From a virus, in the IMG/VR virus record IMGVR_UViG_3300025319_000113, positions 1-22,158 of that record: a stretch of 22,158 bases of DNA; one strand, 5' to 3'. Positions 3,269 through 18,741 of the stretch are shown here, one piece after another. Both the position numbers and the translations under genes were made by a program. The notes beneath the pieces were generated by a model. That model saw only the letters and a list, made by a program, of their open reading frames with translations. It was not told the DNA's origin and did not search any database. Numbering within the stretch: the first letter of the stretch is position 1; the number at the start of each line of letters is the position of its first letter.

Positions 3269-3742
3269 TCAGGCGATATAGCCGCTGCCGGTGGGCCCGG
3301 TCATGGAAAGCGCGCGCCAGGTCTCCTGCCACTGGTTGCCGTTTTCGCCTTCCGTCCAGCCCTCCGTGACCTTGACGCAGTTGTGAAACTGATAATACTG
3401 CGCCGTGACGCTCGGCAGCTCTGTGTCCGTGCCCTTGATCTCAAAATGGACTTGGGGGGTCGAAGCGCCCGAGGCGGTCGCAGGCGCGGCCTTGTTGCCG
3501 GTCACAGCTTGCAGGTAGGTGAATTGCAGTTCCTGCGCATTAACGGTCGTGACCTTGTGATGATGGGCCGTGCCGCGCTCCATGACCGTCGCCACGCCGC
3601 GCGCCGAGTTGTAGGTCGTTCCGGCCTGGACGAACCCGATGAGCGCCGTCAATGCGCCCGAGGCCGTGGCCCAGCCGCCGGTGCCCGAGGCCTGCGCCCA
3701 GCGCAGCGCTCCTTCAGCAAACGTCCTGACTTCTCTTGACAT
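3269..3742 (-). CDS. Tail-tube-like protein, paralogue of the gene at 18094
   Basis: A 157-residue protein with a strong ribosome site (AAAGGAG, about 8 bases before ATG 3742). By hand alignment about two thirds of its residues match the C-terminal 155 residues of the protein at 18094-18741. Shared blocks include RTFAEGALRW, SGTGGW, HHHK, VHFEIK and WRALSMTGPTGSGY. The beta-rich composition and the EGWTEGENGNQW segment resemble tail tube or related baseplate/tail beta-barrel proteins. It sits between the tail terminator candidate and the tube gene at 2837. It may be the main tube subunit, a second tube protein, or a tube-decorating protein. The paralogy is directly visible; the exact role is an inference. 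Confidence 0.7.
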   Translation of the reverse strand: MSREVRTFAEGALRWAQASGTGGWATASGALTALIGFVQAGTTYNSARGVATVMERGTAHHHKVTTVNAQELQFTYLQAVTGNKAAPATASGASTPQVHFEIKGTDTELPSVTAQYYQFHNCVKVTEGWTEGENGNQWQETWRALSMTGPTGSGYIA

Positions 3743-4344: not shown

Positions 4345-4556
4345 CAGTTTTTATCCGCCCCTTTGTCGGCTTGCATGGCTTCTTCGAGAAACGCCTTAAG
4401 CGTTTGGATGCCACCCGCATCAGTCTGATACATCAGATTATAAGCCCCGCATTCTTCGCCGTCGTCATAACGCCAATAGATATACGTTTTGTCTTCGGGC
4501 TTTTCAAAAACGGCTACAATCTTCTTTTTTCGTGAAAAGGGATAGTTTTTTTGCAT
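4344..4556 (-). CDS. Small AT-rich hypothetical protein (moron-like)
   Basis: A 70-residue lysine- and tyrosine-rich protein (MQKNYPFSRKKKIVAVFEKP at the start). Its ATG overlaps the stop of the gp10-like gene in TAATG, and its stop overlaps the next ATG in TGATG. The coding DNA is strikingly AT-rich: by hand count only 18 of 60 bases at 4501-4560 are G or C, against about 60% in neighbouring genes. That suggests recent acquisition of a small extra gene inside the connector-tail module. A central YIYWRYDDGEECGAYNLMY stretch is aromatic and acidic. I recognise no family and assign no function. Confidence 0.7.
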   Translation of the reverse strand: MQKNYPFSRKKKIVAVFEKPEDKTYIYWRYDDGEECGAYNLMYQTDAGGIQTLKAFLEEAMQADKGADKN

Positions 4557-4990
4557 TACAACTCCAGCCAGCGCAGGTTAGGGTCGAGCGGGTCGATCAA
4601 TCCCAACTCTTTTTCAAGTTCTACCTGCCCCGTGAGTTGGGCGGTGTCCAAAAATCCGGCGGGGGCCTGGCGCGAATGGCCCTGATTGAGCTGCTCAATG
4701 TAGCCGACGTTGCTACCCTGCGTGATCGTCAGCCCGCCGTCTTCGCTCCGCCAAGTCGCATCGGCGGCGCTGGCCTCGTTGCCCGGCTTGCCGATATCGC
4801 TCGGCGTCCAGTGCCCCCAGGAGGCGCGCGCCCGGCCCGTGTCCACGGGCATCTCGATTTTGACGCGCTTCTCGACCGCGAAGCTGGCGCTCTTCACCGC
4901 CTGGCGCGCGGCGCGGGCCGTGGCGCGCTCGGCCTGGCTCGCCTGGCGCGCGAGTTTGCGGTAGTCGCTGGCGTCAATCGTGATTTGCAT
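4556..4990 (-). CDS. HK97 gp10-like head-tail joining / tail completion protein
   Basis: A 144-residue protein. The open frame reaches far upstream, but ATG 4990 is the likely start because it overlaps the radical SAM stop (TAATG), and the upstream extension is an out-of-frame shadow of that gene. The N-terminal half is a basic/alanine-rich helix (ARQASQAERATARAARQAVK). It leads into KIEMPVDTGRARASWG, the MPVDTG-R motif typical of HK97 gp10-like proteins. These act at the neck, joining heads and tails. It resumes the structural module after the accessory cassette, so in the ancestral order it probably followed the head-closure gene at 11239 directly. Confidence 0.8.
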   Translation of the reverse strand: MQITIDASDYRKLARQASQAERATARAARQAVKSASFAVEKRVKIEMPVDTGRARASWGHWTPSDIGKPGNEASAADATWRSEDGGLTITQGSNVGYIEQLNQGHSRQAPAGFLDTAQLTGQVELEKELGLIDPLDPNLRWLEL

Positions 4991-6270
4991 TAATAAGGTA
5001 TCCCTTCCCGTTCGATGTCTTGCATCAACCGGTCGCGGAACTCCGTGATCTCCTGGCGCGTCAGGTGCGAGGTGGAGACGATAGACTCGTTGTGCTCGCG
5101 CGCTCCCTTGAACCAAAATTCCTCGGGCAGTTCTTCTTCCCATTTCACATCGTATTTTACACCCAAATAATCTTCCGCGCGCCGCGTCATAGGCGTGCCA
5201 GGGAACGGGATGAGCGTGTTCACGTCCACCCGGTCGGGGCGGTGCGTAAGAATCCAATCGCGTGTGCGCTCCATGCTCTCGCGGTCTTCTCCCGGCAGGC
5301 CCAGGATGAAGGACGCTTTGAACTTAATGCCCAACTGCTTACACCAGCCTAAGACTTGCGTATCCTGCTCGATGGTCGTGCCTTTATGGACGTTGGCTTT
5401 GATGCGATTGTCGGCGCTCTCCACTCCGGCCAGCACTTGGACCAGGCCGCCCTCGGCCATCTGCCGCAGGTAGTCCAGGCCGCCCTGGTGCGAGATCACG
5501 TCCGTGCGCAGGAAGCAGCGCCATACGACGCTGTACCTTTTCATCACTTCCAGGAGGGAGAGCATGCGCGGCTTGTTGAGCGGCAGGATGTCGTCGTAGT
5601 ACATCAGCCCCGTGTGTCCGCGCTCGACCGCTTCGCGGATTTGCGCCTCGACGATGGAGAGGGGTTCGTAGCGCACGGAACGGTCCCAGATCACGCCGTT
5701 CCTGCCCGACTCGCAGAAGGCGCACGCCATCGGACATCCGCGCGAAGTGAAGAGCGTGGTCGTGCGATGAGGACGCCCCTCGCGATCGTGGAGCGTCGCG
5801 TGATATTTGTCGTCCCATCTCCTGACGGGCGGCAAGGCCCAATCCAGCGGGCCGGGCGTGATCGGCGGCGCAAAGGAAAGCGTCGTTGCGCGCCGCGCGG
5901 CCCCGGATACGATCCGACTGACCGTCTGCGGATGGTCGCTCTCGCCCGACACGATCACATCGAAGCCCAAAGCGCGGCAAGAATCGGGGTTCGTCCAGGG
6001 CGCAGCCCCGCCGAGGACGACCGCGCTTTTCTCCCAGGCGCGCGTGAGTCCGGCCAGCCGCCTGACCTCGTGCATCTGCGGGCTGGTGGCGCTGATCCAG
6101 ACCTGCTCGAATTCACCGTCCTGGGGAAACGGGTCGCAAGTCAGGTCGCGGAAATCGGTCGCGTATCCCTGCGCTTCCAACTGCGCGGCCAGATACCAAA
6201 CGCCCAAAGGTGGATATACCAGCGGGTCTATGAGAAAAGTTGAACGAGGAAATACTAGACAGATATTCAT
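4990..6270 (-). CDS. B12-binding-type radical SAM enzyme
   Basis: A 426-residue protein with two recognisable parts. Residues 1 to about 130 resemble the cobalamin-binding Rossmann-like domain of BchE-type radical SAM proteins (YPPLGVWYLAAQLEAQGY at 19-36, VVLGGAAPWTNP at 84-95). I see no DxHxxG motif, so direct B12 ligation is unproven. Residues about 170-400 form the radical SAM core, with the 4Fe-4S motif C179-x3-C183-x2-C186 (SRGCPMACAFC) and a later GLPGED segment. Members of this superfamily methylate unreactive carbons or rearrange substrates. The start overlaps the LAGLIDADG stop (ATGA) and the stop overlaps the gp10-like ATG. It lies downstream of glycosyltransferases and a methyltransferase, which suggests tailoring of a sugar, lipid or peptide. 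The substrate cannot be deduced. Confidence 0.88.
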   Translation of the reverse strand: MNICLVFPRSTFLIDPLVYPPLGVWYLAAQLEAQGYATDFRDLTCDPFPQDGEFEQVWISATSPQMHEVRRLAGLTRAWEKSAVVLGGAAPWTNPDSCRALGFDVIVSGESDHPQTVSRIVSGAARRATTLSFAPPITPGPLDWALPPVRRWDDKYHATLHDREGRPHRTTTLFTSRGCPMACAFCESGRNGVIWDRSVRYEPLSIVEAQIREAVERGHTGLMYYDDILPLNKPRMLSLLEVMKRYSVVWRCFLRTDVISHQGGLDYLRQMAEGGLVQVLAGVESADNRIKANVHKGTTIEQDTQVLGWCKQLGIKFKASFILGLPGEDRESMERTRDWILTHRPDRVDVNTLIPFPGTPMTRRAEDYLGVKYDVKWEEELPEEFWFKGAREHNESIVSTSHLTRQEITEFRDRLMQDIEREGIPY

Positions 6271-6704
6271 CTAGGTTCCCAATGATATGATTGTCCTCGA
6301 AGTGTCTTCATTTTTTCACAGATCCAGCTCCGCAATTTCCATTCTTCGGCTCGTATATCTGGATGACCGCGCATAAGGCGCAAATCAGGACGAGATACCA
6401 ATTGTAATCCCAGGGCTGCTTGGGAATGTTTAATCACAAGATATGGCAAAATCTCTTTAAGGAATATCCCTGCCTGTTGTGAGTAAATATGCCATTGATA
6501 GAATGGGCGTTCATTTGGCTTCGGTATGATATTATTGCGGGTAATCTTTCCTCCCCACAAATTTTCAAAAGGCAACAACATTTTCGGATCTGTATTTCCG
6601 ACACTACAATGGAGCTGCATATTCTGCTGTCCCCCTGCCGTTGAGACACAACCTTCACCGTCAAAAATGCCGGCCAAATAAGACAATTCTATTTCCGTTA
6701 TCAT
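6267..6704 (-). CDS. Free-standing LAGLIDADG homing endonuclease
   Basis: A 145-residue protein with one LAGLIDADG motif near the N-terminus (LAGIFDGEG, residues 10-18), the hallmark of homodimeric homing endonucleases that cut long DNA sites. It is not inside an intron or intein that I can see: both neighbours are complete. Its ATG overlaps the methyltransferase stop (ATGA) and its TGA overlaps the radical SAM ATG (ATGA). The coding DNA is poorer in GC (25 of 60 bases at 6301-6360) than the flanking genes, which suggests independent origin. It may promote spread of the surrounding cassette by cleaving phages that lack it. Activity is inferred; the motif acid D15 is intact. Confidence 0.88.
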   Translation of the reverse strand: MITEIELSYLAGIFDGEGCVSTAGGQQNMQLHCSVGNTDPKMLLPFENLWGGKITRNNIIPKPNERPFYQWHIYSQQAGIFLKEILPYLVIKHSQAALGLQLVSRPDLRLMRGHPDIRAEEWKLRSWICEKMKTLRGQSYHWEPR

Positions 6705-7393
6705 GACTCTTCTCCCTTCACCGCCCGCAGCACGATGCGGATCTCATCGGCCACGTTGAAATAGCGGTAGACCATCTTCTCGGCCAGCGCGTGCGGCATG
6801 GCCTGGATGATCTCGGCGTTGCCCTCGGTGAAACGCAGCAGCACCGGCTCGGCCTGCTCGAACTTGAGCGGCGCATGGTAGTCGAACGGCGCGTCGGGAT
6901 TGTCGCCGGTCAGATAGGAGAACGTTCCGGGCGTGACGTATCGCGTGTGCGTCGGGTCGGAAAGCGCCGCGTTGCTCGTGGCGAATGGCGCGCGCACGTA
7001 CAACAGGCCGTCCGGCTTGAGAATGCGCCAGCATTCCGCGAAAAACACGAACCAGCCGTCCAGATTTTCCACTCTTTCGTTATAGATCCTATGCCAGATC
7101 GCTGGCAGCGCGCGCACGAGTTTCACCTGGTGCGGAACGTGCTCGACCAGATGGCTGCAATAGATCGCGTCGGCAGAGTTGTCATTCCAGGGACTGCCGG
7201 TGGACGAGCGCAGCCAGGGGAAGGCGAACAGGTCGATTTGTTCGTTCACGCCCGGCATAAGGAATTTGTCCACGTTGACCCAGCCCGGCTCGTAGCAAAT
7301 ATCCGGCAGCGGGTCCAGATGCGCGGGATAGGGCGAAGGCGCGCCGCGCTCCAACGGGAAGATCACGCGTCCGCAGCCGAGATTTAGCTTCAT
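6701..7393 (-). CDS. Class I SAM-dependent methyltransferase
   Basis: A 230-residue protein beginning at ATG 7393, which overlaps the stop of the CgeB-like gene (ATGA). Residues 2-8 (KLNLGCG) are motif I of class I methyltransferases, binding S-adenosylmethionine. A segment YCSHLVEHVPHQ and, further on, WRILKPDGLLYVRAP match the Methyltransf_11-like pattern (helix after motif III, then the L-x-P-G-G strand variant). Methyltransferases of this size in glycosyltransferase clusters often cap or modify sugars, but protein or small-molecule substrates cannot be excluded. It has no DNA-methylase NPPY or PC motif, so DNA modification is unlikely. Its stop overlaps the LAGLIDADG ATG. Confidence 0.87.
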   Translation of the reverse strand: MKLNLGCGRVIFPLERGAPSPYPAHLDPLPDICYEPGWVNVDKFLMPGVNEQIDLFAFPWLRSSTGSPWNDNSADAIYCSHLVEHVPHQVKLVRALPAIWHRIYNERVENLDGWFVFFAECWRILKPDGLLYVRAPFATSNAALSDPTHTRYVTPGTFSYLTGDNPDAPFDYHAPLKFEQAEPVLLRFTEGNAEIIQAMPHALAEKMVYRYFNVADEIRIVLRAVKGEES

Positions 7394-8271
7394 GCTATTT
7401 TTAACTCTCGGACGCGCCGCAGGAGTTCCAACGCGCGCGCGTCCCAGGTGTACGATTTGACCTTTTCCTTGCCCGCCGCCGCCAGCGAGCGCCAGCGGTC
7501 ATTCACCAGGAGCGCGTGCGCCGCTTCGACGGCCTCGGGCGCGGAAGCATAGGGCCAGAAGTCCGTCCCGGCGATGAAGCCCAGCCGGTCAATGTCCGGC
7601 GCGGTATCGGCCAGGACGCAGCATCCCTGCGCCATGTTCTCGAAAAAGCGCGTCGTCAGATCGCCGTAGGAGCTCCGTACCAACGCGATCTTGGCGCGGT
7701 TGTAGAGCGCGTTGTACTCGTCGAAGAGTGGGCCCAGCATGCCCACCGTATTTTTTAGTCCGCTGGCATCCATCGCAGCCAGGATCTCCACCCGTTCGCT
7801 GTAGGGATAGCCAATTATCAGCACGTCAATGTCGCGCTCCCTGCCCAAGTCGGTATGCATTTCTGGATCATAACCCGGCGGCAGCCAGTAGGCGTTCGGC
7901 TCGGAAGAGCGCGCGCCCCAGGAGTGGGCGAAGAACATAGCGTCGTAATCCGCGCTAGCATAATCGCGCACGTGGTTATCCATGCCCCACAGGATGAGCG
8001 GAACGCCATTGATCCGATGGCCGGCATAGGCAGATTCGGCGTGAATGACTAAATCGGGATGGAATGTTCGGCGCGTTCCGGGAGCAAAGCCATCTTCCCA
8101 ATCGGGCTTCCAGACGTATCGTTCGTCCACTTCCATCCCCCAGATTTTTGTCCCGGTTGAATGGCCCGCCGTCTGCACGTCGTGGCCGAGCCGCCGGAAG
8201 GCGCGCGCCATGTAGCGGCCCGAGGCGACGGGATAGTGGATGCAGGTGATGAGGATGCGGAGCGAAGTCAT
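7390..8271 (-). CDS. CgeB-like glycosyltransferase (GT-B type)
   Basis: A 293-residue protein. The frame reaches 8289, but ATG 8271 overlaps the HNH stop (ATGA) and gives a clean start, MTSLRILITCIHYPVASGRY. The C-terminal half matches the CgeB/Glyco_trans_1_2 pattern: a new strand at VLIIGYPYSERVEIL, then the sugar-nucleotide site LTTRFFENMAQGCCVL (about 205-220). It ends with YTWDARALELLRRV, the usual closing helix. Such enzymes use a nucleotide-sugar donor. The substrate is unknown. The N-terminal half, with FHPDLVIHAES and LILWGMDNH, is the acceptor-side Rossmann domain. Coupled to the methyltransferase below, so the two products are probably made in similar amounts. Confidence 0.83.
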   Translation of the reverse strand: MTSLRILITCIHYPVASGRYMARAFRRLGHDVQTAGHSTGTKIWGMEVDERYVWKPDWEDGFAPGTRRTFHPDLVIHAESAYAGHRINGVPLILWGMDNHVRDYASADYDAMFFAHSWGARSSEPNAYWLPPGYDPEMHTDLGRERDIDVLIIGYPYSERVEILAAMDASGLKNTVGMLGPLFDEYNALYNRAKIALVRSSYGDLTTRFFENMAQGCCVLADTAPDIDRLGFIAGTDFWPYASAPEAVEAAHALLVNDRWRSLAAAGKEKVKSYTWDARALELLRRVRELKIA

Positions 8272-8981
8272 AAAAGCCGTCCGTTCCATTCGTGAGGCAG
8301 TTTGTCTCGTCTTGAAGTATTACAGGACGGGCAGCTGATCACAATGTTTTCCGGGCCATTGCTGCCACCCCGCGCTAACGGTATGCGATGGTCAACATGG
8401 TACTGCTGCCCCAATTCGTAACTACACCACCAGCATAAACCCTTTTGCATTGTGTATTGTTTCTTGGTATCTGCTGCTGTATGTGTGCCAGCCGCCTCGC
8501 GCTTGCGTGCGCGGTAGTTCCTTGTACGGGCCAGATAGGTATCACGGTTTCGCTGATACCGGAGTCGGGATAATTCTTTGGCCCTTTCCGGGTTATTAGC
8601 CTTGCGATTTTTATCAGCCTCTTTCTTTTGCTCCCGATGATTTCTGGCATACTCACGCGAATAAGCACGGCTTCTTTCGATATGCTTCCACTTGCATTTC
8701 AAAGTAATGGCACGAACCTTATCTACGTTGGCCGCTGCCCAACGTCTTGCGTTCGCTCGATGCTGCTCTTTATTTTCCTGATACCACTGATTTGCTCTTG
8801 CCTTAGATCGCTCAGGGTTATTTGCATTCCAAATTCTTGTCCGAGCGGCTGTACATGGCTTGCAATATGATGCAAGCCATACTTTGTCACCCTTCCGGCA
8901 TGGTGAAAAGTATTCGGTTGTAGCAGGAAGTGATCGGGAACAGTCCTTGCAGGTTTTGTAATGCGGGATAGAATCAATCAT
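8268..8981 (-). CDS. HNH homing-type endonuclease with N-terminal Cys-pair finger
   Basis: The frame is open from ATG 9086, but I choose ATG 8981 because it begins just before the usual N-terminal module: CKDC (11-14) and YCKPC (39-43), a four-cysteine zinc site. Residues about 50-165 are basic and repetitive (two NNPER units with xxYxxN spacing), probably a DNA-reading region. Residues 183-220 hold the nuclease: CWWC, then HVDHRIPLARGGSNGPENI and CPSC, i.e. catalytic H-N-H with a zinc pair on each side. By hand count 27 of 60 bases at 8641-8700 are G or C, well under the surroundings. It sits between two glycosyltransferase genes and its stop overlaps the next ATG. The start is the least certain part. 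Confidence 0.85.
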   Translation of the reverse strand: MIDSIPHYKTCKDCSRSLPATTEYFSPCRKGDKVWLASYCKPCTAARTRIWNANNPERSKARANQWYQENKEQHRANARRWAAANVDKVRAITLKCKWKHIERSRAYSREYARNHREQKKEADKNRKANNPERAKELSRLRYQRNRDTYLARTRNYRARKREAAGTHTAADTKKQYTMQKGLCWWCSYELGQQYHVDHRIPLARGGSNGPENIVISCPSCNTSRRDKLPHEWNGRLL

Positions 8982-9072
8982 GCTGGACTTCTCGTGTAGG
9001 TTCAGCCACGCTCCGGGATGTTTCCGCATCGCCGGAGCACTTCCTATAGTATAGAACATTATGGCGCTCACA

Positions 9073-9978
9073 TCAATATGCCACATGGATTATCGAGGTG
9101 TCCGGCGTAATGCGCCGATCCCATTTTTCGTGGAAGCGTAATGAGTTGGCGCGGAAACTTTCCGCCGTCGCCGCGTTGGATGCGCCGACTCGATGCGTGA
9201 AGACGGCTTCCGGGCAGTACCAGACTTCAAAGCCGCGCAGTTTCACGCGCTCGCACAAATCCACGTCTTCAAAATAGCCGCGTCCGTAACCAATATCAAA
9301 CAGACCCGCTGAAGCAAACAGATTATTTCGGATCGCCAGCGCCGCGCCGGTCGTCCAGGAGACGCGCTCGGCAATATTCACGCGCCAATCGTCGGCGGCG
9401 AAACCAATATAGCGATGGAACGGGCCTTTGCCGCCGTCGTAGAGTCCGCCGCAGGATTGGATGGAATACGCGGGCGGGCGCGGCGCGGTCAAACCGGGTA
9501 ATGCGCCCGTCCCATTCGGGCCGAGCGGGAAAACGAGTTTCGGCCCGACGATGCCCACGTAGGCGCGTTCGTCGAACATCCCCATAAGCGGCCCGAACCA
9601 GCCGGGCTGCGCCTGCGTGTCCTGGTTCAGAAAGAACAGCACGTCGCCCCCGGCGCGCGCCGCGCCTGCATTGCAATTGCCGGCAAAGCCCAGGTTGCGC
9701 GGATTGCGCGCCACCTGCGCCGGCGGGCCGATGATCTCGGTCAGGTCGACGTCCGGGCTGGCGTCATCCTGCACCAGGATTTCCATCCGGCCGGCCATCC
9801 CCTCCGCGCCCGCCGTCGCTACCAGCGATTTCAGGCACAAGATGAGAGCCTTCAGGTCGTTGTAGGCCGGGATCACGATTGACAATCTCAGGCTCGCGCC
9901 CATCACCGGGGCGGCTCGCGGGGCCGCGTGTATCGCTAAGTTGGTTGGCGTCAGGGGCAGGGCTTGGGGCAGGCTCAT
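9073..9978 (-). CDS. Family 2 glycosyltransferase (rhamnosyltransferase-like, GT-A)
   Basis: A 301-residue protein. Start ATG 9978 is supported by AAAGGA at 9990-9995, while the later ATG 9903, close to the domain start, has no ribosome site. The GT2 core begins at LSIVIPAYN (32-40), followed by QDDAS (70-74), RNLGFAGNCNAG (94-105), the NQDT acidic site (118-121) and EDVDLCERVKLRG (237-249). Together they are typical of rhamnosyl- or related sugar transferases acting on a growing glycan. The first 25 residues are proline/alanine-rich and overlap the previous gene. No membrane segment is visible. The acceptor may be a virion protein or a host surface glycan; neither is shown by the sequence. 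Confidence 0.9.
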   Translation of the reverse strand: MSLPQALPLTPTNLAIHAAPRAAPVMGASLRLSIVIPAYNDLKALILCLKSLVATAGAEGMAGRMEILVQDDASPDVDLTEIIGPPAQVARNPRNLGFAGNCNAGAARAGGDVLFFLNQDTQAQPGWFGPLMGMFDERAYVGIVGPKLVFPLGPNGTGALPGLTAPRPPAYSIQSCGGLYDGGKGPFHRYIGFAADDWRVNIAERVSWTTGAALAIRNNLFASAGLFDIGYGRGYFEDVDLCERVKLRGFEVWYCPEAVFTHRVGASNAATAESFRANSLRFHEKWDRRITPDTSIIHVAY

Positions 9979-11197
9979 GGCTCGGTTTGTCCTTTCGTTC
10001 GCGCTTCAACGCCGATTGTAGCACAGTTTCTACCTGGTCGGCGGTCACGTCCCATGTCTGCCGGATCGCCCACTCGTAGCCGCGCTCGGCCGTGTACGCC
10101 GCCAATGCGCGATCGGCGTAGAGCATTTCCATTTTTTCGATCAGATCGGACACGTCCGGGAAGGCGTCGCGCGCGCCGCCCCAGGTGCCATGCTCCATGT
10201 AGGCCAGCCGTTTGACGAGCATTCCCCGCCCCTCGCCGACGATCTCCGGGCCGCTGCACCAGTCCAGCGCCAGCGTCGGCACGCGGCAGGCCATCGATTC
10301 CACCAGCGGCAGGCCGAAGCCCTCACGGTGGCTGATGACCATGTGCGCATCCATCAGCGCGTAGCGAGAGCGCAGCGGGTGGAAGGGCGACGCGCCGCTG
10401 GCCGCGTCGGTCGTGCGCTCGAACAAATCCTGGCGGTAATCTGCGCGCTTCTGTTCGGCTTCCGTCCAGCCGGTTTGTTTCAGCAGCGTAGGAACGTCCC
10501 AACCCGCCGGACTCACCTTGTCCATGTCCAGGAACAGGCGCGCTTCGGGTTTGGCGCGCGCAAATTCGTGGAAGGCTTCGAGCATGGGCGGGATGGCCTT
10601 GCGGCCCTGGTTCATGCACACGACGCCGACGACGTAATCGCCCGCGTCGTAACCGGCCTTCTCACGCAGCGTCTTTTTTTCGTCGTCCGCCGCCGGATAG
10701 AACTCCTGCAAGTTCACGCCCGGATGACAGAGCGCGGCGCGCTTCCCAGACTGGCGCAGGGCTTCGACGCCGAAGCGCGAGATGACCATCCCGCCGTCGG
10801 CGTAATCGGCCATTTTCAACCAGTCGGGATGAACGGGCGTCCCGTCGATGGGCGTAATCCAGACCCATTTGACGCGGGAAAAATCGATCCGGCAGGCGTT
10901 CCATAGCGTCTGATGATAGGGGAAGTCCTGGCAGGAAATGAGCAGGTCGGGCCGGGTCGTGTTGACGATCGTAACCAGGGAGTTCCAAATATCCTGCCCG
11001 CCGAGCGGCCAGACGTGAAAGGGGAAATCGTGCGGCCAGCCGGTGTAATTAAGCGCCGCGGCCTGGATGCTGTAGCCGCGCTGGTGCAGGCGGCGCAGGA
11101 CCTCGTTGCCGATGCGCCCGAAGCCGCTTGGGGCCACCAGGTCGCCGAACCACAGGATTTTATAGGGCTGTTGTGTTTGGGGATTCAGATTTTTCAT
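9764..11197 (-). CDS. GT4-type glycosyltransferase
   Basis: A 477-residue protein. I choose ATG 11197, preceded by AGGAG, over an upstream ATG (11227) that lies in a hairpin loop. The N-terminal Rossmann part starts at YKILWFGDLVAPSGFGRIG, a donor/acceptor-side motif of GT-B enzymes. The C-terminal part carries SHREGFGLPLVESMA (about 289-303), the E-x-F-G-x-x-x-x-E element that binds the nucleotide sugar in GT4 enzymes. The last 70 residues, from SHEPAPSPAP onward, are proline-rich and lie in a 215-base overlap with the next gene in another frame. That tail is probably not part of the fold. It opens the accessory cassette directly after the head-closure gene and a GC-rich hairpin. Confidence 0.86.
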   Translation of the reverse strand: MKNLNPQTQQPYKILWFGDLVAPSGFGRIGNEVLRRLHQRGYSIQAAALNYTGWPHDFPFHVWPLGGQDIWNSLVTIVNTTRPDLLISCQDFPYHQTLWNACRIDFSRVKWVWITPIDGTPVHPDWLKMADYADGGMVISRFGVEALRQSGKRAALCHPGVNLQEFYPAADDEKKTLREKAGYDAGDYVVGVVCMNQGRKAIPPMLEAFHEFARAKPEARLFLDMDKVSPAGWDVPTLLKQTGWTEAEQKRADYRQDLFERTTDAASGASPFHPLRSRYALMDAHMVISHREGFGLPLVESMACRVPTLALDWCSGPEIVGEGRGMLVKRLAYMEHGTWGGARDAFPDVSDLIEKMEMLYADRALAAYTAERGYEWAIRQTWDVTADQVETVLQSALKRERKDKPSHEPAPSPAPDANQLSDTRGPASRPGDGREPEIVNRDPGLQRPEGSHLVPEIAGSDGGRGGDGRPDGNPGAG

Positions 11198-11214: not shown

Positions 11215-11238
11215 CGGGCGGGGTCATCCCGCCCGTAC
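11215..11238 (-). repeat. Intergenic GC-rich hairpin, GGGCGGG type, copy 2
   Basis: Arms CGGGCGGG (11215-11222) and CCCGCCCG (11228-11235) with a 5-base loop fill the 41-base gap between the head-closure gene and the first glycosyltransferase. The plus-strand element ends GTAC. The AGGAG ribosome site of the glycosyltransferase lies two bases from the stem. No U-tract follows. It marks the boundary between the head module and the accessory cassette. Confidence 0.7.
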
Positions 11239-11631
11239 TTACCCGGTTTTGCTCGCCAGCCGCAGCGGTTGGCGGAACAACACGCGCCCGCCCAGATTTT
11301 CAGGCATGGCCGCGCCCGCGACGCGGTAGGCCGTGCCGCGCCAAACGATCTCGTCCTGCGCGCCGAGCGCGCTCAGCGTGGTAAATAGCATGTCGGCGTT
11401 CTGCGCCTGCCCGCCTGCCAGGTCGCGCTCGTTCGGGCGCGGCGCTCCGAAGAGCGTGCTGGCGAAAAGCCCGGTGACGGTGCGCTCGACGTAGTTGAAC
11501 GTCGTCGCCGCGCCGAATTTTGGCGTGCCGGTCACGCCGCTGATGTACTGGCGCACGGTCGCCGTCTCGCCGGCGTTGCCGATCACGTCCAGCGCGTTGC
11601 GCTGGATGCGCGCCGGGTCAGGACGGCTCAT
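11239..11631 (-). CDS. Putative head closure / stopper protein
   Basis: A 130-residue protein. Its ATG 11631 overlaps the stop of the connector gene (ATGA). Sequence features are beta-rich: VRQYISGVTGTPKFGAATTF, then a segment on a reference axis (DEIVWRGTAYRVAGAAMPEN) resembling the small beta-barrel of SPP1 gp16/HK97-type head-closure proteins. These form a ring under the connector and close the head channel after DNA packaging. No decisive motif is present. The location between connector and (originally) gp10-like gene supports the role. The accessory cassette is inserted immediately downstream, so the connector-neck order is now interrupted. Confidence 0.55.
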   Translation of the reverse strand: MSRPDPARIQRNALDVIGNAGETATVRQYISGVTGTPKFGAATTFNYVERTVTGLFASTLFGAPRPNERDLAGGQAQNADMLFTTLSALGAQDEIVWRGTAYRVAGAAMPENLGGRVLFRQPLRLASKTG

Positions 11632-12963: not shown

Positions 12964-14028
12964 TTAGTCAACCGCCGGAGCAGTCGTCGAAGAACTGAAG
13001 TACGCGTATCGATCGTTCAGCATGCCGACGCCGTACCAATCGCGCACGCGGTAGCGCACGTGGTCGTAGACGAAATACCCTTCGTGCTCGACGCGACCGG
13101 CGGATTCTTGCAGGATTTGCAGCCCTTCGACTTCCTGCAGGATTACGGCTTGCTTGGCTTCCATCAGCACCCACTGGTAGGACGAGCCGACGCGCGGGCT
13201 GACGATGATGCGGTTGACCACGCCCCGGAAGGGGTTGGTGGTGCCGGTACCATACGTCTGCGCCGTGACGACGTCGCTCGGCCCGATCAGGAAGGGCGAC
13301 AAAAGCAATTGCTTGACCGCCATTTCCAGGCGCGGCGTGACGAGCAGCGTGTCCGGGTTGACGCCCAGATAACTCCCCGTCTTGCGGTCCTTCATGGTGC
13401 GCAGCGTGGTCAAGGCCGTGTTCAACCCGGTCGCGCTGAAAGTCGTGGCCGCCGTATTGTTGCCGATGTCGTTGTCGGCGGTCGTGCGGTTGTAGTTCCC
13501 GGCGGCCGTGGCAACCGAGTAGCAGGCCACTTCGCGCGTGCGCGCCGCCGCGCGGCCCAGCTTCTCGGCGTGCCGCTTCAGGATGTTCAGGCGGTTGAAG
13601 CGGATCATCTCTTCAGTGACGGAGATGATCAGGCCGCGTTTCTGGTTGCGGATTTCGAGCGTCCGATCCAGATCGAGCTTAGCCTCCGGGAAGGGCGTGT
13701 CTTCGTGCACTACCGGCAGCTCCCCGATGTCGTTCTCTTCGGCCCAGTTTTCGGCCTGCTTGTCGGAGGGCATGGTCATGGCCCATTCCTGCCAGGTGGT
13801 CGGGACGCGGGCATAAGAGTCGAACGTGATCGAGCGGATGCCGTCGCGCAGGATGACCGGGAATTCGTTGGTGGTCGAGGCCTCCTGGAGCGTGATCCGG
13901 TGTCCGTTGCGGCGCGCGGCGAAAAGCTGCTCGACGTCCAGCGCCGGGCCGGTGTAATGCTGCCCGATCGTTTCGCGGATCTTGCCGGCTTGCGGGTCGA
14001 GGATCTCGATGATCTTCTGTGTATTCAT
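12964..14028 (-). CDS. Major capsid protein, HK97 fold (Mu gpT-like candidate)
   Basis: A 354-residue protein. The open frame extends far upstream, but ATG 14028 has a strong AGGAG 7 bases before it, and the upstream part is a shadow of the decoration gene. The central pattern supports an HK97-fold shell protein: RVPTTWQEWAMTMPSDKQAE, SVTEEMIRFNRLNILKRHAE as the spine helix, and VNPDTLLVTP in the A domain. I lean to the gpT-like group because a gpF-like gene and a protease-scaffold lie upstream. The gene order protease, decoration, capsid is standard. The first residues IIEILDPQAGKIRETIGQHY are helical and could be trimmed or act as a delta domain. Confident as major capsid; the subgroup is tentative. 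Confidence 0.87.
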   Translation of the reverse strand: MNTQKIIEILDPQAGKIRETIGQHYTGPALDVEQLFAARRNGHRITLQEASTTNEFPVILRDGIRSITFDSYARVPTTWQEWAMTMPSDKQAENWAEENDIGELPVVHEDTPFPEAKLDLDRTLEIRNQKRGLIISVTEEMIRFNRLNILKRHAEKLGRAAARTREVACYSVATAAGNYNRTTADNDIGNNTAATTFSATGLNTALTTLRTMKDRKTGSYLGVNPDTLLVTPRLEMAVKQLLLSPFLIGPSDVVTAQTYGTGTTNPFRGVVNRIIVSPRVGSSYQWVLMEAKQAVILQEVEGLQILQESAGRVEHEGYFVYDHVRYRVRDWYGVGMLNDRYAYFSSSTTAPAVD

Positions 14029-14657: not shown

Positions 14658-16411
14658 TGGCCGCGTATTTTACGCAGCCGGTACTCTTCCGCCGATTCTC
14701 CTGGTTGCGGCATTGCGCTCTCGTCTAATCCCATGAGCGCGACCGCCGGATGAACCGGTTGCGGCGCGGCGTCTGGCGGCCCGCCGGACTTCTGGCCCGC
14801 GCCGCTGACCGAAACCGGGACGCGCGGCAGGCTGTCGTATTTCGCCTTTTCCCGCGTGAGGACTGTCTTCATCCCGGCTTCGTCGGCGCAGGTCAAGAGT
14901 TCGGGGCGCACCGCCGCCCGCAGTTTGTGGGGCAAGCCGCTCTCGGCCAGCAGCCCGTCGGCCAATTTCTCCCGGCGAAGATTCGCCAGCTCGGAGTCGT
15001 CGGCCCGGCTCGCGGCAGAAAGCTGCTCGATTTTTTGTTTGGCTTCCATCAGTTCTTGCTTGAGCGATTGCGCGGCTTCCGACTCGCGCACGGTCTTCCA
15101 TTCCCCCTTGAGCTGCTCGATAAACTCTGGGCGCGCGGCGCGCCATTCGTCGAAGGAGAGCGCGGCGAGCAGTTTCCCCGTCCAGTCGCCGCCGTCCGAA
15201 TGAAGCAGCGCGCCCGCGAAACTCCCGCCGGCCGCGCCGGTCGTCACCACGTCCACGCTGTTAGCATCCACGATGCTCTCGACGATGATTGCGGCTCTTC
15301 CCTCAGCCTCGCCCAGGCGGGTCCTGCCCAGCGCATTGATGGAAAGTTCCACCAGATCAGGCTTGTGTTGTACGGCTTCGGTGATGAGCGGCCACAGCCA
15401 TTGCCGCGCCTCGCCCACGACCTTGTAATCTCCGACCAGCCGTCCGTCATCCAGGGCGGACACATTGGCGTAATAGCCGACCAGATCGCGTATGCTGCGC
15501 TCCGGCAGCTCCTTCTCATCCGAGCGGCGCGGATGGTCGGCATAAGCGCGCGTGCCCTCGAAGATCTTGGCCGCCTGGCGCAACGTCTCAGGCGGGTAAT
15601 AGCGCACACGGCCCGCCTTGTCCGTGTTGGTCGAGAAGCCGGGCCGGATGAGCGTCACGCGCCGCGCGATGAATTCAGCCGCGTCCAGTTCGCTTTCGCG
15701 CAGATCGATCCGCTCGGCAAAATAGCCAGTGCGTAAAGATTCTGCGTTCTTCGCGCCCGTCTGAGCGGCAGCTGAAGACCATTTTTCCGGGAGCATGGCC
15801 GCCGCGCCCAGCGCGCGCGCGCGTTTCGTGATGTGGCGTTTGGTGGCCTCGTCGGGGGAGCGTCCGTAGGCTTGGATGGCGTCCGAGAGCGCGGCCTTGT
15901 CGGGGATGGGATACGAGCCGTCCGGCATGGCGATCCCCTGTTTGGCGTACTGCTTGCGCAGTTCGGTGGAATAAGTGCGTTCGTAGAGCCGTTTAGATTC
16001 AGCCGTGTAAGTCAGTTGAACCTTTTTCCATTCGCTTTTTTCCGGGAATTTGTATTCGTCATCGCTTTTTGAAAAATCAACCCGGTAAAGATCAGCCCCC
16101 TTTTCCGCGATCAGATAGCCATCATCCAGGAAGAACTCTTTGATATAGCAATAATCTGCCTGGATCGCATTACCCGATTGCGGATTGAACTTTTCGGTAA
16201 AAGCGCGCCGCACGGCATCCATTTTCTGATTGGTGCTGACGGCTTCTAAAAGAGTCGGCCATAGGCCGCGCTCCGAATCCTTGACGTTGGCGTACAGCGC
16301 CTTGACGTGCTCGGCGGCTTCCGCCGGCGTCTTGTGACACTTGACCCGCTCGCCCTTCGACCCGTCGGCGTTTAGTTTATGAACGCATAAGCCGAAAACT
16401 TTGTAAGGCAT
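14654..16411 (-). CDS. Prohead protease fused to scaffold, with an extra N-terminal domain
   Basis: A 585-residue protein from ATG 16411; a GTG at 16480 would add 23 residues from intergenic sequence and is less likely. Part one (about 1-215) starts MPYKVFGLCVHKLNADG. It includes MPDGSYPIPDKAALSDAIQA (162-181), followed by RHITKRARALGA, a module I have seen often near phage proteases (DUF6582-like). Part two (about 240-405) is the protease: ADHP with H293, then VELSIN with S357, and D382 or D387 as possible third residue, as in Mu-type/S78-like prohead proteases. Part three (about 435-525) is a charged coiled-coil scaffold (KQELMEAKQKIEQL). It would cut itself and the capsid during head maturation. 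The N-terminal region is somewhat poorer in GC. Confidence 0.82.
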   Translation of the reverse strand: MPYKVFGLCVHKLNADGSKGERVKCHKTPAEAAEHVKALYANVKDSERGLWPTLLEAVSTNQKMDAVRRAFTEKFNPQSGNAIQADYCYIKEFFLDDGYLIAEKGADLYRVDFSKSDDEYKFPEKSEWKKVQLTYTAESKRLYERTYSTELRKQYAKQGIAMPDGSYPIPDKAALSDAIQAYGRSPDEATKRHITKRARALGAAAMLPEKWSSAAAQTGAKNAESLRTGYFAERIDLRESELDAAEFIARRVTLIRPGFSTNTDKAGRVRYYPPETLRQAAKIFEGTRAYADHPRRSDEKELPERSIRDLVGYYANVSALDDGRLVGDYKVVGEARQWLWPLITEAVQHKPDLVELSINALGRTRLGEAEGRAAIIVESIVDANSVDVVTTGAAGGSFAGALLHSDGGDWTGKLLAALSFDEWRAARPEFIEQLKGEWKTVRESEAAQSLKQELMEAKQKIEQLSAASRADDSELANLRREKLADGLLAESGLPHKLRAAVRPELLTCADEAGMKTVLTREKAKYDSLPRVPVSVSGAGQKSGGPPDAAPQPVHPAVALMGLDESAMPQPGESAEEYRLRKIRGQ

Positions 16412-16485
16412 AATCCCTGCTCCGCAAAACAAAAGCCGCTCCCGGAAGCGATCCCGGCGCGGCTCACGGCTCTGCGGCACAACTG

Positions 16486-16506
16486 CCCTGGCGGGCGTTG
16501 CCAGGG
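16486..16506 (-). repeat. Intergenic GC-rich hairpin, CCCTGGC type, copy 2
   Basis: Arms CCCTGGC (16486-16492) and GCCAGGG (16500-16506) with a 7-base loop lie in the 114-base gap before the protease gene, the longest gap in the window. It shares 12 exact bases with the copy at 2801. No U-tract. The second copy of the 13-base repeat lies 14 bases away (16460-16472). Confidence 0.7.
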
Positions 16507-16525
16507 AACTCGGACGTATTGTATG

Positions 16526-16777
16526 TCAGATTTTCGCGGGCGGCAAGAGGCCTGTCAAGTCGGACAAGCGTATGGGTATCTCGCGCCCGGCCTTCTTATC
16601 CCAGGCGAAGAGCGTGCCTGAAACGGTATCCAGCCGGAAAAGCAGCGTCCCCGCCTGGCTGACGACGAACAGGCCGCTGCCCGTGCGGTGCTGCAAGAGC
16701 CAGCCCTGAGCGACAGTTGAAGGAGGGCGCGTCGGAGAAACGACGAGTGGCGCGGCGGGGAGCGTCGAAAGAGTCAC
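16526..16777 (-). CDS. Small hypothetical protein between gpF-like and protease genes
   Basis: An 83-residue protein with a GTG start at 16777 that overlaps the stop of the gpF-like gene (GTGA). The first 20 residues are proline- and threonine-rich. The rest looks beta-rich (GWLLQHRTGSGLFVVSQAGTLLFRLD, then SGTLFAWDKKAGREIPIRL). I recognise no family. Translational coupling to the morphogenesis gene and position argue for a role in the head, possibly a minor capsid component. No ribosome site is clear, as expected for a coupled start. Confidence 0.6.
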   Translation of the reverse strand: MTLSTLPAAPLVVSPTRPPSTVAQGWLLQHRTGSGLFVVSQAGTLLFRLDTVSGTLFAWDKKAGREIPIRLSDLTGLLPPAKI

Positions 16778-17838
16778 GTGGAATACAAATGCGGCGCGGC
16801 TTTGACTGCATCTGCGCTAGGGGATTTCGGCGGCGGCGTCGAGCGGAAGTACAGCACCCCGCCGTCCTGCGCGATGGTGATCCCGCGCGCGGCTGCCCAT
16901 TCGCGGTAGGTCTGCCGTGCGCCGACGATGCGCTCTTCCAGCGCGGAATTGATCAAGACCGGCGTCGGCGTGCAGCGGCAGCGCGGATGGCTGCCGGTCG
17001 GCGGCGGCAGGTGCTGGCTGCCGAAACGGAAGATCTGCCCGTCCAGCGCGCCGCAGATCGGGCAGGTGCGCTCGTCCTTTGTCGCCGTCCACTGCCAGCC
17101 GCGCAGCACATCCTGGTTGCGCTCATAGATCGCCAGCGCGCCGTTGTTGCTGGCGCGCAGTATCTCCGTGCGGGCGATCAACTCGGTGCGATAGAAATAA
17201 GCCTGGTTCGCCGCGCGCGCTGCCGCCGTGCGCCGGGAGATGTCTACGCCCAGCGCGCGCGCCAAGCGAACCTGCGCCTGGTAAATGGACTCGCCTTCAA
17301 TTTGACTTTCAACCATGGCGCGGCGGACGATCCGCTCGAACTCACCGCGCGCGTCCAGGAAGCGGTCTACGAACGTCAGGCCAATATACGGTTCGAGAAT
17401 GGCGGCGCGGATGGCGTCCGTCGGCAGGATCGGAATTTCTAGCGGCAGGCCGGTGCGCAAACCTTCTTCCAACTGCCATGCGCCGCCGTAATAACCGGCC
17501 TGGTAGCCGCGCACACTGGCGCGCAACGCCGCATCCATCGCCGCGCTGTTGAGCGATTCCAGTTCCGAACCGATCTGCGCCAGAACCGCCTCGGTGCGCG
17601 TGCGGAAGGCCAGATCGGACGCGCTCCAGGTCTCGCCCGCGCCGTACTGCGCCGCCACGCTGCGCAGCCGCGAGGCCATGCGCTCGAACGCCTCGCGGTA
17701 AATGGCGTAAAGTTCATTGACCGCCAACTCTTCCAGCGCCCACAGCCGGGAGCGGATATAGGCCTCCGCCTCCTGGATCGTGCGGGCGCGGATGGCTGAA
17801 TTGCGCGCGATGACGGTAACTAAATCGGGCAGGGCCAT
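16774..17838 (-). CDS. Phage head morphogenesis protein, Mu gpF-like
   Basis: A 354-residue minor head protein. Its ATG 17838 overlaps the previous stop (TAATG). The C-terminal part carries the family signature: RTELIARTEILRASNNG (217-233), GWQWTATKDERTCPICGALDG with C259 and C262, then SHPRCRC with H284, C287 and C289. The Cys/His set looks like a zinc site. Members of the SPP1 gp7/Mu gpF family bind the portal and are injected or built into the prohead. The N-terminal half is helical, with alternation of charged residues. It follows the portal/adhesin group and precedes the protease, as expected for head modules. Confidence 0.9.
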   Translation of the reverse strand: MALPDLVTVIARNSAIRARTIQEAEAYIRSRLWALEELAVNELYAIYREAFERMASRLRSVAAQYGAGETWSASDLAFRTRTEAVLAQIGSELESLNSAAMDAALRASVRGYQAGYYGGAWQLEEGLRTGLPLEIPILPTDAIRAAILEPYIGLTFVDRFLDARGEFERIVRRAMVESQIEGESIYQAQVRLARALGVDISRRTAAARAANQAYFYRTELIARTEILRASNNGALAIYERNQDVLRGWQWTATKDERTCPICGALDGQIFRFGSQHLPPPTGSHPRCRCTPTPVLINSALEERIVGARQTYREWAAARGITIAQDGGVLYFRSTPPPKSPSADAVKAAPHLYST

Positions 17839-18093: not shown

Positions 18094-18741
18094 CTAAGAT
18101 AGATAACCGCTTCCGGTTGGCCCGGTCATGCTAAGCGCCCGCCAGCGTTCCGTCCAGACGTTGCCCTGCTCGGTCTCCGTCCATCCCTCGGCTATTTTAG
18201 CACAGTGCTCGAATTGGAAATACTGCGCGGTGAAGGCAGGGGCTTCAGGAATGGTCGTCTTGATCTCGAAATGCACCTTGGGCACGCTGGCCCCGCTGCC
18301 GGTCGCCGGATCGGGCCGGTTGGCCGTCACCGCCTGCCGGTAAGTGAACTGGAATTCGACCGGATCGTTGCTCAAGAGTTTGTGATGATGCGGCGTATCG
18401 CGTTCTAGCACCGCCGCGACCGTGCGCGCGCTGCGGTAGGCCGCGCCCGGCAGGACAAATCCGACGAGCGCCGTGGGCGCGGCGGAGGCCGTCGTCCATC
18501 CGCCCGTCCCAGAAGCTTCTACCCAGCGCAGCGCGCCCTCCGCGAAAGTGCGGGCTTCGTACCCGGTCGCCGTGCCAGCGGCTGCCCCGGTCGTATATTC
18601 GAGTTGTATCCCCGCGACGGTAACGCGGCGGAACGCCGAGGGCGCGTATTCGATTTCCGCGTCCGCGACCGTGACGCGCCGGAACGCCGAGGGCGCGTAT
18701 TCGATTTCCGCGTCCGCGACCGTGACGCGCCGGATGCTCAC
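18094..18741 (-). CDS. Tail-tube-like protein with N-terminal 17-residue repeats; paralogue of 3269-3742
   Basis: A 215-residue protein with GTG start 18741. Residues 4-20 and 21-37 are two identical 17-residue units (RRVTVADAEIEYAPSAF). A divergent third unit (RRVTVAGIQLEYTTG) ends near residue 53. From residue 61 to the end it aligns without gaps to the tube-like protein at 3269-3742, at about two-thirds identity by hand (102 of 155). It is encoded far from the tail genes, between the adhesin candidate and the Cys-pair protein. It is probably a virion protein made by duplication of a tube-like gene and gain of a repeat tract that may attach it to another structure. The start is plausible but lacks a strong ribosome site. 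Confidence 0.72.
   Translation of the reverse strand: MSIRRVTVADAEIEYAPSAFRRVTVADAEIEYAPSAFRRVTVAGIQLEYTTGAAAGTATGYEARTFAEGALRWVEASGTGGWTTASAAPTALVGFVLPGAAYRSARTVAAVLERDTPHHHKLLSNDPVEFQFTYRQAVTANRPDPATGSGASVPKVHFEIKTTIPEAPAFTAQYFQFEHCAKIAEGWTETEQGNVWTERWRALSMTGPTGSGYLS
18631..18732 (-). repeat. Perfect 51-bp tandem duplication (two copies)
   Basis: Bases 18631-18681 and 18682-18732 are identical. Each unit encodes 17 residues, so the reading frame is kept. A diverged third copy lies next to it (about 18580-18630). Exact identity at the DNA level shows a very recent or actively homogenised duplication. Confidence 0.95.

Follow-up and report, generated by a model that had tools for sequence, protein, structure and literature searches.

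The glycosylation of phage particles is known mainly from mycobacteriophages, where glycans shield the virion. According to two reports, phage-encoded glycosyltransferases (GTs) decorate the capsid and the tail tube, as exemplified by the mycobacteriophage proteins Che8 gp110 and Corndog gp38 (PMC12363180, PMC12619734), and the glycans are carried at the C-termini of the capsid and tail tube subunits (PMC12619734). Another setting is provided by pelagimyophages, in which GT-rich host-recognition regions include cassettes of radical S-adenosylmethionine (SAM) genes (PMC7029224). Here we analyse a block of putative glycan enzymes in a viral record of 22,158 bases (IMG/VR record IMGVR_UViG_3300025319_000113), which in its entirety is referred to as the window and to which all positions refer. 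Between a head gene and a gp10-like neck gene, the window encodes three GTs (of the GT4, GT2 and CgeB-like types), a class I methyltransferase, a radical SAM enzyme with a B12-binding domain and two homing endonucleases of the HNH and LAGLIDADG types. The GT and methyltransferase genes appear, from comparison with related phages, to form an ancestral core of the late operon, and we tentatively propose that their products glycosylate virion proteins.

As in these mycobacteriophages, the GTs of this system are phage-encoded; the lineage to which the window belongs differs in that a fixed slot among the neck genes combines a methyltransferase with three GTs, joined in two lineages by a B12-type radical SAM enzyme. 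The co-occurrence of GTs with radical SAM genes is shared with pelagimyophages (PMC7029224), and the statement of the first-pass annotation of this DNA that such a combination is not recognised from phages was therefore too strong. However, the pelagimyophage region lies near the tail fibre genes, is hypervariable and dominated by GT8 enzymes, and has been read as a means of modifying the host O-chain (PMC7029224). No paper among those searched joins B12-binding, radical SAM, phage and GT. Synechococcus phage S-CBS4 (HQ698895) possesses, between its portal and capsid genes, a GT4 of the same family (26% identity) close to a methyltransferase and an HNH gene (in the order GT4, hypothetical protein, methyltransferase, HNH), but this stretch precedes the capsid gene instead of following it and has no annotated GT2, CgeB-like GT or radical SAM enzyme. 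Similarly, in a podovirus from Manatee Spring (MW202524, L086) a number of GT genes, a pair of methyltransferase genes and one synthase-like gene separate the capsid gene from a downstream stabilisation gene, although its structural genes are unrelated, a radical SAM gene is not annotated and only a methyltransferase is detectably similar (25%). Phage-encoded virion glycosylation (PMC12363180) and regions combining GT and radical SAM genes in pelagimyophages (PMC7029224) are thus already known. What is new is that an undescribed lineage conserves such a block in its neck slot, and that a clade of B12-type radical SAM enzymes, seen only in phages, recurs in that setting.

Searches with the capsid protein of the window retrieved relatives at 64-69% identity, and a capsid alignment extended this reach to 35%, after which profiles of the window genes were searched in the reading frames of the capsid-relative loci. 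These capsid-based searches yielded 13 phage lineages, i.e. the window and 12 relatives with 35-70% capsid identity to it. Records L002-L004, whose proteins are 100% identical to those of this stretch, and L005, which carries its end, belong to the same virus type and were not counted as independent; a further record of 46.5 kb (G003) has the appearance of an almost complete genome of the same type in circular permutation. In each of the seven lineages that span the slot (the window, L012, L016, L063, L067, L068 and L072), and leaving optional genes aside, the head gene is followed by GT4, GT2, the CgeB-like GT, the methyltransferase and gp10. The other six (L018, L064, L066, L069, L070 and L071) end or become undetectable within the slot; all of them carry GT4, and also GT2 wherever the sequence extends to it, and a GT4 orthologue is present in 12 of the 12 other lineages. 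No empty slot was found among the 12 relatives examined, so the comparison of related phages with and without the block, as suggested by the first-pass annotation, returned the core in every slot-covering relative and no relative lacking it. Because this gene order recurs in independent lineages it is far beyond chance, and the presence of the core in every slot-covering relative, always at the same place, ties it to the structural module.

The divergence of the four enzymes follows that of the capsid. Between the window and L012 (70% capsid identity) the values for GT4, GT2, CgeB-like GT and methyltransferase are 64, 63, 51 and 46%, respectively, and between the window and L072 (35% capsid identity) they are 48, 44, 34 and 36%. 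Across pairs of lineages, enzyme identity is correlated with capsid identity (r of 0.90 for GT4, 0.84 for GT2, 0.88 for CgeB and 0.71 for the methyltransferase), and trees of the structural genes and of the four enzymes both separate the window, L012, L016, L018, L063 and L064 from L067, L068, L070, L071 and L072 with a bootstrap of 98 or more, the order within these clades being different or unresolved. To judge from these sequence comparisons, the four core enzymes are an ancestral part of the late operon and about as conserved as the capsid. Two distant phages with approximately 25% capsid similarity, Stenotrophomonas phage S1 and Methanoculleus virus Blf4, have no annotated GT at the slot, which suggests that acquisition of the core probably dates to the base of the lineage or earlier. 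The carriers of the core constitute an undescribed lineage or family of bacterial viruses. In 50,697 records of described phages, GT2 and the CgeB-like GT had no match, while the methyltransferase and the radical SAM enzyme had only remote ones. The methyltransferase retains the motifs L-LGxG, HxxEHxPH and DPxHTR in seven lineages, and its structure model has a generic class I fold of weak resemblance to known structures (TM about 0.45), pointing to no substrate; neither this protein nor the CgeB-like GT was matched by sequence to a solved structure.

The remaining genes of the block vary independently of this core. The HNH gene is present between GT2 and CgeB in three of eight lineages (the window, L016 and L067) and absent there in L012, L063, L064, L068 and L072, a pattern that needs three changes on the tree, whereas the LAGLIDADG gene occurs at its site only in the window type and is absent there in all relatives. 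The radical SAM gene is found in two of the seven spanning lineages (the window type and L012), and is absent both from the slots of the five others and from the rest of their available records. HNH, LAGLIDADG and radical SAM are thus three separate additions, and since four of the seven genes are ancestral, the first-pass view of an inserted seven-gene cassette is not supported; recent insertion of all seven is rejected for the core, and only the radical SAM gene could have arrived in this way. An endonuclease domain together with presence or absence at the same site among relatives, as is typical of free-standing homing endonucleases, characterises both HNH and LAGLIDADG, and the two would be selfish passengers.

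All main window genes are located on the minus strand. In the sense of transcription, MuF, protease/scaffold, decoration, capsid and four small genes precede GT4, GT2, HNH, the CgeB-like GT, the methyltransferase, LAGLIDADG and radical SAM, which are followed by the gp10-like neck gene, the tail tube and the tape measure (Table 1). The order, strand and place of the seven genes were correctly given by the first-pass annotation, and their families were borne out by Pfam and PHROGs; the LAGLIDADG assignment, for which the Pfam match (2.5e-4) is just short of the cut-off, rests mainly on PHROGs and PADLOC. The proposed stop-start linkage from HNH to the gp10-like gene was likewise read from the DNA, as ATGA at the HNH/CgeB, CgeB/methyltransferase, methyltransferase/LAGLIDADG and LAGLIDADG/radical SAM junctions and as TAATG between radical SAM and gp10. 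The GT4 reading frame opens at 11227, while homology places its start at about 11197, and its end overlaps GT2 out of frame by 215 nt (9764-9978), an arrangement that recurs in L012, L016 and L064, the overlap in L067 being of 4 bases only. Promoter and terminator patterns inside the block showed no clear excess over shuffled expectation, and PADLOC found no defence system. For the gene upstream of the block, the earlier label of head closure agrees with its position, but family support is marginal: the window protein itself has no match, and three of eight orthologues match the phrog_939 "head protein" family with a best E of 0.002.

The radical SAM enzyme has the architecture of class B enzymes, with PF02310 at residues 18-114 and PF04055 at residues 175-340, both over the cut-off, and a cluster motif C179xxxC183xxC186 within the stretch RGC179PMAC183xFC186E that is invariant in 14 sequences. 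Its nearest curated subfamilies are HpnJ, PhpK, ApyD, MgmA, BchE and AprD4, although no curated NCBIfam cut-off was reached (97.1 of 577.6 bits for HpnJ, 64.3 of 500 for AprD4 and 66 of 481 for BchE). AprD4 is a diol dehydratase, whereas MgmA, TsrM and CysS are methylases. An AlphaFold model built from the 14 sequences (pLDDT 78, pTM 0.80) was best matched by AprD4 with paromamine (6fd2, TM 0.70), then by MgmA (9ccb) and TsrM. The two nearest characterised relatives, AprD4 by structure and HpnJ by curated profile, both act on amino sugars, i.e. on paromamine and on bacteriohopanetetrol (BHT) glucosamine, the latter being converted to the cyclitol ether in a last step (PMC12583986). This fits a tailoring step on a glycan, even though the phage protein is far below the cut-offs of both subfamilies and falls in a clade of its own.

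Relatives of this enzyme at 65-74% identity are present in L006, L007, L020 and L021, and L024 contains a fragment with 61% identity. The capsids of these phages belong to another family (phrog_1328 for L007), no other gene cluster is common to them and the window by BLAST, and their capsid gene is followed by one or more GT-like genes, by GT4s with a methyltransferase, by radical SAM and then by tail genes. In L022 (57%) and L025 (55%) the gene has another radical SAM gene and a GT2-like gene as neighbours; this additional radical SAM gene (11314-12057 in L022, 12976-13707 in L025) encodes a short protein with weak similarity to a tungsten-enzyme maturase family. More distant B12-type enzymes (25-28%) occur in L026-L032 with GT17, GT2, GT4, epimerase and methyltransferase genes, a group that in L027 sits between capsid and tail genes. 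Wherever the flanks are long enough, GT or GT-like genes and mostly methyltransferase genes adjoin radical SAM, in four phage types. The first-pass annotation had named the occurrence of these genes elsewhere or in unrelated hosts only as a sign against its proposal, and this applies in part: radical SAM does occur in unrelated phages, yet there too its neighbours are GT and methyltransferase genes and, where the position could be seen, it lies between the capsid and tail genes, which strengthens the link with glycans. The window enzyme is 74% identical to that of L020, with its unrelated capsid, but 66% identical to that of its own kin L012, and it is this identity, not topology, that points to transfer: the window and L012 versus L006, L007, L020 and L021 are not separate clades (recovered in 6% of bootstrap trees), and the star-like tree gives no direction. 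A screen of 84,980 genomes of bacteria and archaea, which needs short exact peptide patterns and would therefore miss remote relatives, found no full-length relative and four weak partial matches in bacterial metagenome-assembled genomes, while a structure search recovered B12-type radical SAM proteins also from uncultured Caudovirales. By sequence, these enzymes appear to be a phage clade of their own at 55-74% identity, with relatives found in viral records only. That several unrelated environmental phages have shared this dedicated phage-only enzyme, and that it equips their virions with a sugar of unusual kind (C-methylated, deoxy or ring-rearranged), is possible, if doubtful; to our knowledge such chemistry has been described for no virus particle.

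Taken together, a late-expressed soluble pathway that glycosylates virion proteins, with tailoring by methylation and by the radical SAM enzyme, is the reading that we tentatively favour. GT4, GT2 and the CgeB-like GT would assemble a short glycan on an acceptor in the cytosol. This acceptor would most likely be a capsid or tail protein encoded in the operon itself, in analogy to the capsid and tail tube of some mycobacteriophages. The methyltransferase would cap or methylate the glycan, and in L012 and the window-type phage a sugar may be altered once more by the radical SAM enzyme (through C-methylation, dehydration or ring rearrangement), with the use of SAM and possibly of cobalamin from the host, the sugars and the order of steps being likewise provisional. 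The constant position of the core, its coupling to the neck gene and its co-inheritance with the structural genes speak for a virion protein; conservation along with the structural genes, as expected of virion glycosylation by phage GTs, holds across 13 lineages (r 0.71-0.90, same main tree split). In addition, the capsid in nearly all lineages ends in a Ser/Thr-rich tail (YSSSTTAPTV), with a mean of 46% Ser/Thr in the last 12 residues versus 15% overall, richer than in nine other structural proteins compared, which gives a weak lead to a candidate acceptor site. Several points weigh against this proposal. The acceptor is one that we infer; another capsid stretch is equally Ser/Thr-rich, Blf4 has a Gly/Ser capsid tail without annotated GTs, and the unrelated radical SAM phages compared show no such Ser/Thr tail. 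The radical SAM enzyme belongs to no curated subfamily and its best structural match, AprD4, is not a methylase, and the genome scan with its alignment found neither host nor prophage. Furthermore, GTs encoded next to the capsid gene might just as well have the host surface as their target at a late stage of infection, a role that has been proposed in pelagimyophages (PMC7029224).

This latter possibility, in which the enzymes alter a capsule, O-chain or S-layer glycan and block re-adsorption of progeny or superinfection, is the main alternative and in our view a rather unlikely one. Late timing would explain the place in the structural operon, the pelagimyophage cassettes have been interpreted in this manner (PMC7029224), and GT2 shows weak similarity to GTs of the GtrB-like and PglI types. 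Nonetheless, none of the window genes was recognised as a flippase, GtrA or polymerase, and GT4, GT2, the CgeB-like GT and the methyltransferase contain no membrane segment (hydropathy segment above 1.6) in any lineage, unlike GtrB-type host-envelope GTs; the membrane-anchored GTs and GtrA flippase of Gtr-type O-antigen modification were thus not recognised here, which disfavours envelope modification of this type. Moreover, the slot is fixed within the neck genes in every lineage and not near lysis or tail fibre genes. The placement in the late operon, the translational coupling to the neck gene and a glycan role at the virion or the host surface, as put forward by the first-pass annotation, are supported in general terms.

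The radical SAM enzyme is unlikely to be a passenger independent of the glycan pathway, which would act for instance on a protein side chain as does MgmA, a protein C-methyltransferase and the second-best structural match, and would share only the late promoter. Its absence from five of the seven lineages with a full core and its presence in unrelated lineages agree with such a role, but this is opposed by the GT or GT-like and mostly methyltransferase genes that adjoin it in four phage types and by the amino-sugar substrates of its nearest characterised relatives.

GTs and radical SAM enzymes also occur generally in phage DNA modification. Two unrelated carriers of the 65-74% relative, G006 (L051-L053) and G011 (L054-L056), encode QueE-, QueD-, FolE- and DpdA-like proteins, recognised by eye, and QueC was found by profile in G006; a 7-deazaguanine DNA modification is thus likely in these phages alongside the late GT block. 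For the window, glycosylation or hypermodification of phage DNA is very improbable and was rejected as the principal explanation: with positive controls, PF00303 (the thymidylate synthase/hydroxymethylase family) is absent from nine related records including the near-complete 46.5 kb relative, QueC was found in G006 only and in no relative of the window, and the core genes sit in the structural and not the replication block. Lastly, recent transfer of the seven-gene block from a bacterial polysaccharide locus, where GT, methyltransferase and radical SAM genes are typical, is scarcely credible given a core co-inherited with the capsid over 35-70% identity, no empty slot and no close cellular relative of radical SAM found.

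Other features of the window were also observed. The C-terminal domain of the protein encoded at 18094-18741 is 66% identical to the tail tube-like protein at 3269-3742, indicating duplication of a tail tube-like domain upstream of the MuF gene. The N-termini of the 18094-18741 and 21060-21299 proteins carry short repeats of the type RRVTVADAEIEYAPSAF, with near-identical DNA copies of 72 bases. Comparison with G003 revealed that viruses otherwise more than 99% identical differ at about 15172-16783, a variable stretch of the protease/scaffold gene for which protein identity in L004 is 72%.

Table 1. Genes of the neck-slot block and flanking structural genes in the window, in the sense of transcription.
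Feature	Positions	Strand	Evidence and remarks
Major capsid protein, candidate acceptor only	12964..14028	-	phrog_133 2e-30; Ser/Thr-rich C-terminal tail FSSSTTAPAVD
Head closure by position, upstream of block	11239..11631	-	weak family support (phrog_939 head protein)
GT4-type glycosyltransferase, first core gene	9764..11197	-	PF00534 6.8e-9; phrog_2170 glycosyltransferase 8e-26
GT2-type glycosyltransferase, core	9073..9978	-	PF00535 1.1e-19
HNH homing-type endonuclease, optional	8268..9086	-	PF01844 1.2e-8; between GT2 and CgeB-like GT
CgeB-like GT-B glycosyltransferase, core	7390..8271	-	PF13524 1e-16; orthologues 33-54%
Class I SAM methyltransferase, core	6701..7393	-	PF08241 2.7e-7
LAGLIDADG-like homing endonuclease, window-type phage only	6267..6704	-	phrog_5046 9.6e-24; PADLOC HEase 1.8e-5
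B12-binding-domain radical SAM enzyme, optional, last before gp10	4990..6270	-	PF04055 1.5e-16; PF02310 1.5e-10
HK97 gp10-like / Neck1 tail completion protein	4556..4990	-	PF04883 9e-5; phrog_169 1e-12

In conclusion, glycan enzymes are a fixed and ancestral part of the operon of the head-tail junction in a whole undescribed lineage of phages, and phages unrelated to it show the arrangement of capsid, glycan enzymes and neck or tail genes again. Should virions be the site of decoration, complex glycans that alter adsorption and recognition may be present on many phages in the environment, and the radical SAM enzyme, found here only in viral records, would, if this is true, be a new sugar-tailoring catalyst.

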